A stretch of 64,000 nt of DNA from a bacterium A37T11 (GTDB taxonomy: Bacteria > Bacteroidota > Bacteroidia > Sphingobacteriales > Sphingobacteriaceae): positions 62,001-126,000 of the forward strand of contig FOBR01000017.1 of the NCBI GenBank assembly GCA_900109895.1. The letters are read 5' to 3'. Below, piece by piece: positions 2,739 to 24,620 of the stretch; the stretch's first letter is position 1; each line of letters starts with the position of its first letter. The notes below the pieces were generated by a model that saw only the letters and a program-made list of their open reading frames with translations, had not been told where the DNA came from and ran no database searches. The position numbers and the translations under genes were made by a program.

Positions 2739-3784
2739 CAGCGTTTAATATTGCGTTCATTCAGCGCTTGCTGAAATTTACGGGCATTGATCAGGTGTTC
2801 GGCTTCGGTGCGTGCAAAATTGTGATAACCCGAGAAATCGTCTTTGGCACACATGTATAAATAATCGTGCTGTTGGTGGTTCAGTACGGCATCCAGCGAG
2901 GCAATACTGGGCATCATAATGGGGCCAGGGGGCAATCCTTTATAGATATAGGTATTGTAAGGTGATTCGGTCCGTAGGTGTTTGAACAAAACCCTCCTTA
3001 TGGAAAAATCGTGCGTGGCATAGATAACCGTGGGGTCTGCCTGTAGGAGCATTCCTTTCCTGAGCCGATTCAAATAAAGGCCCGCAATGGCTGGCATTTC
3101 ATCGGTATGTAGCGCCTCTCCCTTGACAATAGAAGCCAGGATGCTTACCTGAATAGGGCTTAAGTTCAAATCCCGGGCTTTATTCATCCGTTCATCTGTC
3201 CAGAATTTCTGGTATTCTGTATGCATCCTTTCAAAGAAATCGGTGGCGCTGGTGTTCCAGAAAAATTCATAAGTATTGGGAATAAACATACAAAAGAAAT
3301 TCTCGGTGGTGAATCCGTAGGCCGCAGCCAGGCTGTCACTATTGAGCATGTTAATCATGGCGATGGAGTCTGGCTCCAGTTGTGTGCCTAAAAATCCAGC
3401 AAATTCCTCTTTCAGCCTAATATTTTGGAAACGCAGATGAACGGGCTCCTGAAATCCACCACCCAACATGTTAATTAAACGACGGTTGTTCATGCCCTTG
3501 CTCAGCTTATATTTACCAGGTTTGACGCGCGAAGGATACTTCATCCAATTGGCAGCCCAATGGAAAGATGCCGTATCTTCAACAATATTTTTTTGGGCCA
3601 ATTCTTGCATCACCTCTTCAAACGATGTACCAGTATGAATATATAAGTATGGTTGGCTCTCTGTCACACTGGGCGCCAGAAATCGAATGTACATTTTATA
3701 GGCAACTACTCCGCCTGCCAGCAATACTGCAAAGACAACGCCTGCCAAAAGGCGAAGTATTCGTTTTTTTTTAGGATCGTTCAT
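2738..3784 (-). CDS. mltG: Endolytic peptidoglycan transglycosylase MltG
   Basis: A 348-residue protein with a basic N-terminus, one membrane anchor at about residues 10-30, a LysM-like segment and the YceG/MltG catalytic domain. The motif SIVKGEA carries Glu223, equivalent to the catalytic glutamate of E. coli MltG, followed by the family blocks AGLYLNRL, LQADPTV and SPYNTY-KGLPPGPI. MltG cleaves nascent glycan strands at the outer face of the cytoplasmic membrane and is thought to set strand length. It lies 27 bp downstream of the PASTA-protein gene and overlaps the thioesterase gene by one base, forming a PASTA-mltG-thioesterase-brkB unit divergent from ddl. Confidence 0.93.
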   Translation of the reverse strand: MNDPKKKRILRLLAGVVFAVLLAGGVVAYKMYIRFLAPSVTESQPYLYIHTGTSFEEVMQELAQKNIVEDTASFHWAANWMKYPSRVKPGKYKLSKGMNNRRLINMLGGGFQEPVHLRFQNIRLKEEFAGFLGTQLEPDSIAMINMLNSDSLAAAYGFTTENFFCMFIPNTYEFFWNTSATDFFERMHTEYQKFWTDERMNKARDLNLSPIQVSILASIVKGEALHTDEMPAIAGLYLNRLRKGMLLQADPTVIYATHDFSIRRVLFKHLRTESPYNTYIYKGLPPGPIMMPSIASLDAVLNHQQHDYLYMCAKDDFSGYHNFARTEAEHLINARKFQQALNERNIKR

Positions 3785-3810
3785 ATAAAATTAGGTCTCG
3801 CTTTTTAGTT

Positions 3811-4566
3811 TTAATTACTCAATGCAACATTAATGGGTGTGCCAATACTGACCTTGGTGCTGTCTGGCACAGGAGACTGGCTCACGATCCGGGCGGTTGC
3901 ACTGTCTGTCACGGTACCCATATAGTTGACCGATCCTAGCATGAGTGATGCCCCTTGTAGGGCAAATTTTGCCTCTTGTAAAGTAAAACCAATTAATTTT
4001 GGTATTTCTACTTCACTTGCGCCAAATCCATTACCCAGAACCAGATCGATCTGAGATCCTTTAGGAATCTCTTCGCCTGCTTTAATCTTCTGACCACCGT
4101 ATTTGACATCTAATACCCTGTCGCGAGCAATATCAGGTATATAGATAGTATCTCCTAATTTTAGCCCGTAGTTACTTAGGGTGGATCGGGCTTCGACATA
4201 GGTCATTTCAAGCAAATCCGGAAAGGTAACGCTTGGTGCAACCCGAGTGACGATGGTGAGATATAGGTTGCGATTTTCTTTAACGTCGGTACCAGCATCC
4301 GGATCTTGTTCTATAACCATTCCTGGTTTTGCATCTGCCTGATATACGGAGTCAACCTGATAACGAAACCCCATTCTTTCAACCGTTTTTATGGCTTCCT
4401 CGATACTTTTTCCCTTAAGTAAGGGTACTTTGATGTTTTCTCCGTGCCTGGTATATACGCGGAGACCAAAAAAAATAAGCACTAAAAACAAGATCACTGT
4501 GATGATCGCGGCAATCAGGTTTTTTCTGAAAACTGCACTACTGAGATATTGAAAAAATTTATTCAT
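3811..4566 (-). CDS. PASTA-domain membrane protein
   Basis: A 251-residue protein with a short cytoplasmic tail, a membrane segment at about 16-36 and three consecutive PASTA domains (roughly 43-110, 112-184 and 186-251). Each shows the family pattern of a Val/Ile-Pro start (VPLLKGKSIEEA, FPDLLEMTYVEA, IPKLIGFTLQEA). PASTA domains bind peptidoglycan or beta-lactam-like ligands in penicillin-binding proteins and Ser/Thr kinases; here there is neither a kinase nor a transpeptidase domain, so the protein is a free-standing extracytoplasmic PASTA module. It is divergently arranged from ddl, with about 100 bp between the start codons, and probably acts in cell-wall synthesis or remodelling with MltG. 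That role is inferred from context. Confidence 0.88.
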   Translation of the reverse strand: MNKFFQYLSSAVFRKNLIAAIITVILFLVLIFFGLRVYTRHGENIKVPLLKGKSIEEAIKTVERMGFRYQVDSVYQADAKPGMVIEQDPDAGTDVKENRNLYLTIVTRVAPSVTFPDLLEMTYVEARSTLSNYGLKLGDTIYIPDIARDRVLDVKYGGQKIKAGEEIPKGSQIDLVLGNGFGASEVEIPKLIGFTLQEAKFALQGASLMLGSVNYMGTVTDSATARIVSQSPVPDSTKVSIGTPINVALSN

Positions 4567-4615
4567 CTGATAACACTCACTTTTCTAAAATTCTAACTTG
4601 TTATCTACATTTTAG

Positions 4616-4645
4616 TTGTTCTGTTTGCTACAAGCCTTATATTTG
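4616..4645 (+). promoter_or_regulatory. Bacteroidota-type promoter of ddl
   Basis: TTG at 4616-4618, then 19 bp, then TATATTTG at 4638-4645: a complete match to the Bacteroidota sigma-factor consensus TTG-N19-TAnnTTTG. The ddl ATG follows 20 bp further on, so the leader is only about 14 nt. Confidence 0.75.
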
Positions 4646-4665
4646 CCAGACATTAAATAAATGCA

Positions 4666-5676
4666 ATGGGTGCAAAAATAGCATTAATTACCGGTGGTTT
4701 TACTGAGGAGGCTGAAGTTTCCATTAAAAGTGCGGCCTTTGTGGAAGATAAATTAAAGCCATTGTCCTATGAAGTATATAAAATTTTTATTACAAATTAT
4801 GGCTGGTATTATGAAGATGAGAAAGGGTTAAAATATCCCATCGATCTGCGCGATTTTCATTTGGATTTGCCAAATGGGTCCATCTTTTTTGATCTGGCCT
4901 TTATTATGGTACATGGCAGTCCGGGTGAAGATGGCCGGTTACAGGGTTATTTTGACATGGTGGGATTGCCTTACACGTCTTGTGATACCCTAACCTCAGC
5001 GGTGACCATGAATAAGGCTTATACTAAGCTGTTGCTGGCTGGTATTGATGAGCTATATATGGCAAATTCGGTTCATTTACATGAAAATGACCGGTCTGAG
5101 GCCTTTAGGTTGGTACAGGAGAAGCTTGTTCCTCCTTATTTTGTGAAACCGAATGCTGGAGGGAGCAGTATTGGGATGACGAAGGTGGTTGATTTAAATG
5201 GGCTTCAGCCAGCGATTGACCTGGCCTTTGATACAGCAAATACAGGCAAACAAGTGATTGTGGAGGATTTTGTGAGCGGCCGGGAATTTTCAGTGGGCAT
5301 ATATCGCAAAAATGGGATTATTCACATATTGCCACCAACTGAGATTTTGACCGAAAATGAATTTTTTGATTATGATGCCAAATATAATGGTATGTCGGAG
5401 GAGATTACCCCTGCTGATCTTACTGAAGAGCAAATCGAGCGGATAAACTATTTGGTGAACGAAATTTATGTACGTCTAAATTGTAAAGGCATTGTCCGTG
5501 TCGATTTTTTCTTGGAAAAAGATACAGATCGTTTTTACTTTATTGAGATAAATACCATTCCTGGGCAGACGCCTCAATCCTTTATTCCGCAACAAGTGCG
5601 CGCATACGGGATGACAGAAACTGATTTTTATGCTGAGTTGATAGAGGAAGCCCTTTTAAATAAGTGCAATGATTAG
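4666..5676 (+). CDS. ddl: D-alanine--D-alanine ligase
   Basis: A 336-residue ATP-grasp ligase joining two D-alanines for the peptidoglycan stem peptide in the cytoplasm. Recognisable blocks include the N-terminal ALITGGFTEEAEVSIKS, the AFIMVHGSPGEDGRLQG loop, VKPNAGGSSIGMTKV in the ATP-binding lobe, and the metal-binding end VDFFLE-FIEINTIPGQTPQS. Length and motif order are normal for Ddl. The ATG is preceded by a consensus promoter, and the gene is divergent from the PASTA/mltG unit, placing several wall-synthesis genes together. It ends four bases before the convergent ATPase gene. Confidence 0.96.
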   Translation: MGAKIALITGGFTEEAEVSIKSAAFVEDKLKPLSYEVYKIFITNYGWYYEDEKGLKYPIDLRDFHLDLPNGSIFFDLAFIMVHGSPGEDGRLQGYFDMVGLPYTSCDTLTSAVTMNKAYTKLLLAGIDELYMANSVHLHENDRSEAFRLVQEKLVPPYFVKPNAGGSSIGMTKVVDLNGLQPAIDLAFDTANTGKQVIVEDFVSGREFSVGIYRKNGIIHILPPTEILTENEFFDYDAKYNGMSEEITPADLTEEQIERINYLVNEIYVRLNCKGIVRVDFFLEKDTDRFYFIEINTIPGQTPQSFIPQQVRAYGMTETDFYAELIEEALLNKCND

Positions 5677-21948: not shown

Positions 21949-22791
21949 TTAAAGGATATCCGATAATTTAAAAACCTCTCCAAGTCTGATGCCTTTTTCT
22001 GTTTGAATTAAAGTGCAACACTCATTTATAGGGTCATGTTCTAAAAAGAGAATATAATTATGGTCTAGGGCTTCTTTCCAAAACATTTGTCTCTCAGACA
22101 TTGTAATGAGTGGACGTATATCATAACTCATCACATATGGAATTGGAATATGTCCAACCGAAGGAAGCAAATCGGCCATATAAAGGATGGTTTTTTCTTT
22201 GTAACAAATTTGTGGTAGCATCATGGCTTCTGTGTGTCCATAGACATATCTAATGGTAATATTTTTGTTAAGAGCACACCTTATATTTGTATCAATGTAA
22301 GATAACTGGCCATTTTGCTTAATTGGAAGAATATTTTCAGATAGAAAGGAGGCCTTTTCTCTAGGATTTGGTTCAATAGCCCATTTCCAATGCGCTTCAT
22401 TACTCCAATAAGTTGCATTTTTAAAGGAAGGGATTAATTGATCACCATCGCGAATAATAGCACCACCTACATGATCAAAATGCAAATGTGTTAATATAAC
22501 ATCCGTAATATCGTCTTTTTGAAATCCATGTTTAGCCAATGAATGTTCAAGCGTGGCATCGCCAAACCGATGGTAGTGGCCAAAAAATTTTTCATCCTGT
22601 TTATTACCAAGTCCGGTATCCACTAATATAAGTTGTTTGCCATCTTCAATAAGTAATAACCGCGTGGCCCAGGTACATAAGTTATTTTCATCAGCGGGGT
22701 TGCTGCGTTGCCAAATAGACTTTGGAACCACACCAAACATTGCGCCGCCATCCAATTTAAAAAAACCAGTGTCAATACTGTATAGCTTCAT
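21949..22791 (-). CDS. MBL-fold metallo-hydrolase
   Basis: A 280-residue metallo-beta-lactamase-fold enzyme; I take the ATG at 22791 (MKLYSIDTGFF) over one five codons upstream because the family starts there. The zinc motif THLHFDHVGG is intact, and later ligands are visible in VYGHTEAM, LYMADLLPS and FLEHDP. There is no signal peptide. The closest general type is the quorum-quenching lactonase/YtnP-like hydrolase group, but the substrate cannot be assigned. It stands alone, with the decayed pckA remnant upstream on the other strand. Confidence 0.85.
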   Translation of the reverse strand: MKLYSIDTGFFKLDGGAMFGVVPKSIWQRSNPADENNLCTWATRLLLIEDGKQLILVDTGLGNKQDEKFFGHYHRFGDATLEHSLAKHGFQKDDITDVILTHLHFDHVGGAIIRDGDQLIPSFKNATYWSNEAHWKWAIEPNPREKASFLSENILPIKQNGQLSYIDTNIRCALNKNITIRYVYGHTEAMMLPQICYKEKTILYMADLLPSVGHIPIPYVMSYDIRPLITMSERQMFWKEALDHNYILFLEHDPINECCTLIQTEKGIRLGEVFKLSDIL

Positions 22792-22843
22792 AATGCAAAT
22801 GTACAATTCTTTGCCAAGAGGCTGAATTTATAGTCTAATTCAG

Positions 22844-23165
22844 AGTGGATCCTCTTGGAGCTGTTTTACAGCTAAGGTAGCTGGAATGGAAAGGGGCATA
22901 ACCGAACCTAAAGCTGTCGCGTATGCCATTGGGTTTACCCAGAGCTATTATTTGTGCATCCCTAAATGGCGAGCTAAAGGATGTTCATTTTAAAACGTAG
23001 CCGGTATTTAGATTGCACTATGGAACAATGGATGCCTACTACGCACAAGCTTATAAATTGGCAAATTTGTTTGAAAAAAATTTTCAAAAACATGCAAACA
23101 ACGTTCGTGAAGATGTACTGGAAGCTGCGCCAAAGACAATTAATTTCATATCAGCCGTAAGTTAA
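22844..23165 (+). pseudogene. pckA: Decayed fragment of ATP-dependent PEP carboxykinase
   Basis: No complete gene is present, but two stretches of the C-terminal part of phosphoenolpyruvate carboxykinase are readable in different frames. The first, from about 22868, gives TAKVAGMERGITEPKA, close to the TxKVAGTExGITEP motif of ATP-dependent PckA. The second, 23028-23165, gives MDAYYAQAYKLANLFEKNF and runs to EDVLEAAPK and a stop, like the PckA C-terminus. Stops and a frame change separate them, and the region between motifs is too short. This is a remnant of a lost or duplicated gluconeogenic gene; I cannot tell whether an intact copy exists elsewhere. Confidence 0.72.
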
Positions 23166-23231
23166 ATTACAGATTTTAAGCTGTGCCATAGGTGCTTTTC
23201 GCGCCAATGGCACAGCCTTATAATATAAGCT

Positions 23232-24620
23232 TTAAAGATGGATGACTTCACCGTAAGCATCGGCTGCTGCTTCCATAATAGCTTCACTCATTGTAGGGTG
23301 TGGATGGATGGACTTGATGATTTCATGTCCTGTCGTTTCCAGCTTACGTGCGACAACCACTTCAGCGATTAATTCTGTCACATTTGCCCCAATCATATGG
23401 GCTCCCAAAAACTCGCCGTACTTCGCATCAAAAATGACCTTCACAAACCCTTCTTTATTTCCTGCTGCACTGGCCTTTCCTGAAGCTGAGAATGGAAATT
23501 TCCCAACTTTAATTTCATAACCTGCATCCTTCGCAGCTTTTTCAGTATAGCCGACAGATGATATCTCAGGTGAACAATAGGTACAGCCAGGAACATTGTT
23601 ATAATTAATGGGATCTACATGCAGTCCTTTTATTTTTTCTACGCAGGTTATCCCTTCGGCCGAAGCTACGTGTGCTAAGGCTTGTCCTTTTACAATATCA
23701 CCAATGGCATAAATTCCTTCTACATTTGTTTTGTAAAAGTCATCAACTAGTACGCGGCCTTTATCCGTTTTAACCCCCACATCTTCCAGGCCTAGATTTT
23801 CAATATTCGGCGTTATTCCTACAGCAGATAAAACGATTTCGGCCTCAAGAATTTCGATTCCTGTAGCAGTTTTGACAGATACCTTACTAATTTTACCAGA
23901 AGTATCCACACTAGTTACTTCAGCCTTAGTCAATATTTGGATACCTGCTTTTTTTAAGCTTTTCTCCAATTGTTTGGAAATTTCTTCGTCTTCAACTGGT
24001 ACAATGCGATCCATGAACTCCACTATAGTGACCTTTGTGCCAATCGAGTTATAAAAATAAGCGAACTCAACTCCTATGGCACCCGATCCAACGACGACAA
24101 GCGATGCAGGCTGCTTTTCCAACACCATTGCCTGCCGATACCCGATAATCTTTTTACCATCCTGTTTCAGGTTTGGTAATTCTCTCGAGCGAGCTCCTGT
24201 GGCAACGATGGTATGCTTTGCAGTATATTCTTTAGTGGTTCCGTCATTTAGCTTGACAGCAATTTTTCCTCCTTTTTTTAGGCTTGCAGTTCCCATCACT
24301 ACGTCGATCTTATTTTTTTTCATCAAAAACTGTACACCCTTACTCATGCCCTCTGCTACCGATCGGCTTCGTTTTACGATGGCATTAAAATCGGGCTCAC
24401 CGCCCTGTACGGTTATACCGTAATCAGCCGCATGCTGCAAATATTCAAAAACCTGTGCGCTTTTTAAAAGTGCTTTTGTGGGAATACAACCCCAATTTAA
24501 ACAAATACCACCAAGCGATTCGCGTTCAATGACAGCTGTTTTAAAACCGAGCTGGGCAGCCCTTATAGCTGCAACATAGCCGCCTGGGCCACTTCCAATA
24601 ACAATGATGTCGTAGTTCAT
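23232..24620 (-). CDS. lpdA: Dihydrolipoyl dehydrogenase
   Basis: A 462-residue FAD disulphide oxidoreductase, the E3 component of pyruvate and 2-oxoglutarate dehydrogenase complexes. The FAD motif GSGPGGYVAAI, the redox disulphide GGICLNWGC (Cys40 and Cys45), the NAD motif VVGSGAIGVEFAYF, the second FAD block GIYAIGDIV and the catalytic HPHPTMSEA at the C-terminus are all intact. No E1 or E2 genes adjoin it. A promoter-like TTG-N20-TAAGTTTG lies upstream on the same strand. Confidence 0.96.
   Translation of the reverse strand: MNYDIIVIGSGPGGYVAAIRAAQLGFKTAVIERESLGGICLNWGCIPTKALLKSAQVFEYLQHAADYGITVQGGEPDFNAIVKRSRSVAEGMSKGVQFLMKKNKIDVVMGTASLKKGGKIAVKLNDGTTKEYTAKHTIVATGARSRELPNLKQDGKKIIGYRQAMVLEKQPASLVVVGSGAIGVEFAYFYNSIGTKVTIVEFMDRIVPVEDEEISKQLEKSLKKAGIQILTKAEVTSVDTSGKISKVSVKTATGIEILEAEIVLSAVGITPNIENLGLEDVGVKTDKGRVLVDDFYKTNVEGIYAIGDIVKGQALAHVASAEGITCVEKIKGLHVDPINYNNVPGCTYCSPEISSVGYTEKAAKDAGYEIKVGKFPFSASGKASAAGNKEGFVKVIFDAKYGEFLGAHMIGANVTELIAEVVVARKLETTGHEIIKSIHPHPTMSEAIMEAAADAYGEVIHL

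Follow-up and report, generated by a model that had tools for sequence, protein, structure and literature searches.

The analysed window, a 64,000-nucleotide (64 kb) stretch of DNA, holds at 22859-23165 on the + strand the remnant of a gene for ATP-dependent PEP carboxykinase (PckA), in which codons ~376-395 and ~444-477, as well as those from ~500 up to the natural C-terminus, are recognizable. The PckA of locus L153, from a relative that carries pckA at the same place, served as the alignment reference. The region is made up as follows.

21949-22791, - strand: intact gene for a YtnP-like MBL-fold hydrolase, adjacent to pckA in relatives
22859-22918, + strand: pckA remnant block 1, residues ~376-395 of L153 PckA (tblastn, frameshift-tolerant alignment, NCBIfam/Pfam)
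22919-23021, + strand: block 2 of the remnant, residues ~444-477, containing one frame change (tblastn frame +2, frameshift-tolerant alignment)
22998-23000, + strand: stop codon inside block 2
23034-23165, + strand: block 3 of the remnant, from residue ~500 up to the C-terminus (phmmer with 1j3b, NCBIfam, alignment)
23176-23221: strong hairpin, lying where the 3' ends of the former pckA and lpdA converge
23232-24620, - strand: intact dihydrolipoyl dehydrogenase gene lpdA (TIGR01350, 575.7 bits, over cut-off)

Both PckA motifs quoted in an earlier, sequence-only reading of this DNA are present on the + strand, in two different frames as it had claimed, and both pieces match PckA under alignment (phmmer, NCBIfam, Pfam and tblastn). 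The 50-aa open frame at 23013-23162 aligned with residues 492-528 of 529 of the ATP-PEPCK 1j3b (phmmer against PDB, 177,635 sequences, E = 9e-07) and matched NCBIfam PckA models at E = 4.6e-05 and weaker, with no match in Pfam. The first piece matched NCBIfam PckA models (E = 1.3e-04 to 0.0015) and Pfam PEPCK_ATP (PF01293; E = 0.003, 16.8 bits, under the curated cut-off of 26.5), and against TIGR00224 the remnant pieces scored 17-19 bits (cut-off 590); such sub-cut-off scores are expected because the pieces are fragments. When the whole window was searched by tblastn with 37 intact PckA proteins, 27 matched the remnant site at E < 1e-3 and the best match outside it had an E of 0.01, and shuffled PckA queries gave no match anywhere in the window at E < 1e-3 (0/185). 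With the PckA of relatives, tblastn E values against the remnant reached about 1e-15 (800-base database), and across 30 of their loci the similarity ran in frame +1 from about residue 376 and in frame +2 from about residue 444 to the end, the proteins of several loci aligning to the first block only. A search of the remnant against a plasmid collection returned no match.

The frameshift-tolerant alignment paired 94 residues with L153 PckA, 53 of them identical, an identity that is somewhat flattered, with block ends that are approximate, because long gaps are cheap in this procedure. Residues 1-375 are missing, as are some 48 that follow residue 395 and roughly 18-22 that follow residue 477, which together with the frame change and the stop bears out the earlier claim of a broken frame with most of the gene gone. 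That claim had come with an extent of 22844-23165 and a count of two pieces, of which the end stands, but the alignable sequence starts at 22859 and falls into at least three blocks. The start of block 2 past its junction is uncertain, with small doubtful matches there, and the aligned part of block 3 (23034-23141, L153 residues 500-535) is followed by a TAA at 23163-23165, close to where intact pckA genes have their stop. A by-eye comparison also showed a weak resemblance to a PckA motif at codons ~22842-22860, upstream of block 1. The alignment begins at residue 376, and the nucleotide-/substrate-binding core region (the first ~375 residues), within which we take the PckA nucleotide- and substrate-binding motifs to lie, is absent. 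The full-length match to PF01293 or TIGR00224 over cut-off that marks a functional ATP-PckA is likewise absent, and what is found is a colinear series of blocks separated by gaps and carrying a single frame change and a single stop, as in a pseudogene at its native locus.

The MBL gene, whose product is closest to the YtnP lactonase model at a score far under cut-off (174.7 vs 425 bits), is present in 242 of 251 family genomes (E <= 1e-50), and its neighbourhood was examined in 50 loci (L111-L160, L111 being the window's own genome), many of them short (about 3.8 kb) with further neighbours outside view. In ten loci from nine genomes, pckA stands divergent from this same MBL gene, adjoining it in three related genera: g4 (L122 and L153, from one genome, and L124, L133, L134 and L136), g16 (L142, L143 and L144) and g18 (L141). 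The pckA frames are full-length in L141-L144 and L153 and cut by the locus end in the remaining loci. MBL followed by lpdA, with no pckA, occurs in L135, L149, L150, L151, L155, L158, L159 and L160. The intact order MBL-pckA-lpdA is absent from all fetched loci, relatives showing either MBL-pckA or MBL-lpdA, and it is from the remnant that we infer this order for the ancestor. Among relatives, 19 lpdA-MBL or MBL-flanking stretches yielded no true pckA remnant; the sole remnant-like match, in L145, lies inside an apparently intact gene that we take to be mnmE and was regarded as spurious. Within g18, the order is MBL-pckA-mnmE in L141 (genome G038, 3600-5330) vs MBL-mnmE in L145 (genome G017, 3813-5240), the mnmE assignment again being presumptive, and G017 contains no PF01293 match; this clean absence beside the same neighbour is probably an independent loss.

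Similarity and synteny in relatives together back the reading of a pckA relic flanked by the MBL hydrolase gene and lpdA, and we put the probability at roughly 93% that 22859-23165 is a pckA pseudogene in its ancestral place, divergent from the MBL-fold hydrolase gene and convergent with lpdA. The sequence-only reading had named two possibilities, that pckA itself had been lost or that a second copy had been deleted, and had pointed to a complete pckA elsewhere as the matter to settle. The host genome, which comprises 5,092,396 bases in 60 contigs and is 97.48% complete, gave no match to PF01293 (ATP-PckA) and none to PF00821 (GTP-PEPCK), so that no other PckA of either type was found. This lack of a PF01293 match, taken with a remnant at the relatives' pckA site, points to loss of the organism's only detectable copy, as far as sequence can tell, with room left in the missing sequence by the 97.48% completeness and the 60 contigs. 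Duplicates do occur, and some family genomes (e.g. G035, G063 and G087) carry two PF01293 matches, so that the remnant might be a fragment of a second or imported copy with the main gene intact elsewhere; this is distinctly unlikely, however, since the search that was negative in the host was positive in 183 of the 251 family genomes and the remnant sits where relatives keep pckA, a synteny on which an imported gene was rejected.

Behind the former gene, the stretch 23165-23235 folds at -28.5 kcal/mol (z = -5.51, 0/200 shuffles as good); a simple terminator scan did not list the hairpin at 23176-23221, which is probably a shared two-way terminator that outlasted pckA. This strong hairpin, and the fact that the 50-aa open frame reaches the native stop, speak for a last block that is still translated as a small protein, or for a stretch kept for another role. 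We consider that very unlikely, because the start of this frame would be a TTG within the former gene, a promoter scan of 22700-23300 found 2 sites vs a shuffle mean of 1.5, and the significant matches of the block are to the PckA tail. A chance resemblance or a misassembly has a negligible probability, for although the blocks are short and the first scores under the Pfam cut-off, several of them lie in the right order at E values down to the 1e-15 level, none of the shuffled queries matched, and intact genes flank both sides in one contig.

For the favoured reading, a decayed native pckA, deletions removed roughly codons 1-375, some 48 codons inside the gene and a further 18-22 or so, in addition to the frame change and the stop, and any order assigned to these mutations would be our inference. 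The remnant yields no enzyme. PEP carboxykinase is used by cells to make sugar from acids, and the other families searched as substitutes in the host, GTP-PEPCK, pyruvate phosphate dikinase (PPDK) and PEP synthase, were not found: the genome gave no match to TIGR01828 (PPDK) at E <= 1e-100 and none to TIGR01418 (PEP synthase) at E <= 1e-5. As a control, the PPDK search was positive in 4/14 control genomes, one of them a Bacteroides, and in 0/251 family genomes. Reverse pyruvate kinase, PPi-type PEPCK and unrecognised enzymes lie outside the families searched. A PEP carboxylase is present (open frame of 860 aa); by established biochemistry this enzyme does not run in reverse in the cell, and the organism should therefore not form PEP from acids. 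With no PEPCK, PPDK or PEP synthase, PEP would not be made from oxaloacetate or pyruvate, PEP carboxylase would still convert PEP to oxaloacetate, and the host would need sugars or other compounds that enter above PEP, a growth phenotype deduced from gene content. An unannotated gap thereby becomes a testable prediction of sugar dependence, in which acids, acetate or amino acids would not by themselves support growth. In the host there was also no match to the FBPase families PF00316, PF06874 or PF03320, and upper gluconeogenesis may be missing as well, a point of little weight given that the control Bacteroides ihuae gave no match to any of the three either and a near-relative control was not included.

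Across the family, taken to be Sphingobacteriaceae because the named loci closest to lpdA are those of Sphingobacterium, Mucilaginibacter and Daejeonella, ATP-PckA (PF01293) is absent from 68 of the 251 genomes, of which 14 carry PpsA over cut-off and 3 carry GTP-PEPCK. PpsA over cut-off was found in 36/251 genomes overall (22/183 with PckA vs 14/68 without). ATP-PckA, GTP-PEPCK, PPDK and over-cut-off PpsA are all lacking in 51/251 genomes, the host included; 43 of these are at least 95% complete, and two (G103 and G220) carry sub-cut-off PpsA-like matches. In members without pckA, PEP synthase or GTP-PEPCK may thus sometimes serve as a substitute, and often none of the tested families is there to do so. 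Should any of the 51 be able to grow solely on organic acids or amino acids, the family would hold a PEP-forming route that current models miss, which we regard as unlikely. PckA-less genomes occur in 14 of 25 genera and PckA-bearing genomes in 19 of 25, and because 8 genera are mixed, loss (or gain) of pckA would have been repeated, on the strength of genome counts; pckA loss within the family looks recurrent. By DNA similarity, one of the genera, g15, would be Mucilaginibacter-like. Two further genomes, G197 and G118 (listed as 99% complete), match PF01293 weakly (best E = 3.6e-28 for G197 and 3.2e-12 for G118) and possibly contain further decayed or split pckA genes. We found no paper on pckA loss in Sphingobacteriaceae in a partial coverage of the literature, and the present counts point to repeated loss of pckA in one Bacteroidota family.

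Compared with the ATP-dependent PckA itself (PF01293, TIGR00224, 1j3b), residues ~376-395, ~444-477 and the C-terminal ~40 of the remnant align in order, and it shares its neighbour gene with the pckA of relatives, but it lacks about 80% of the protein, its frame is broken and it cannot be an enzyme. The nearest parallels are in Brucella ovis and B. abortus, where pckA has become a pseudogene: gluconeogenic PckA is likewise lost while the disabled gene still sits at its site, according to two reports (PMC2677664, PMC7427901). The first attributes the inactivation of the B. ovis gene to a frameshift, with an expected effect on gluconeogenesis (PMC2677664); the second describes the PckA of both species as inactive while PpdK is retained, and also gives the positions of the binding-core motifs of Brucella PckA (PMC7427901). 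The Brucella lesions, as described there, are a late frameshift or stop, so that the product remains long, with 418 conserved residues in B. ovis and a length of 491 residues in B. abortus, and PpdK is kept as a PEP source, whereas in the present host most of the gene is deleted and neither PPDK nor PEP synthase has a match. Pseudogenization of pckA is, as Brucella illustrates, a known kind of event, and the remnant described here is another example of it, an ordinary pseudogene.
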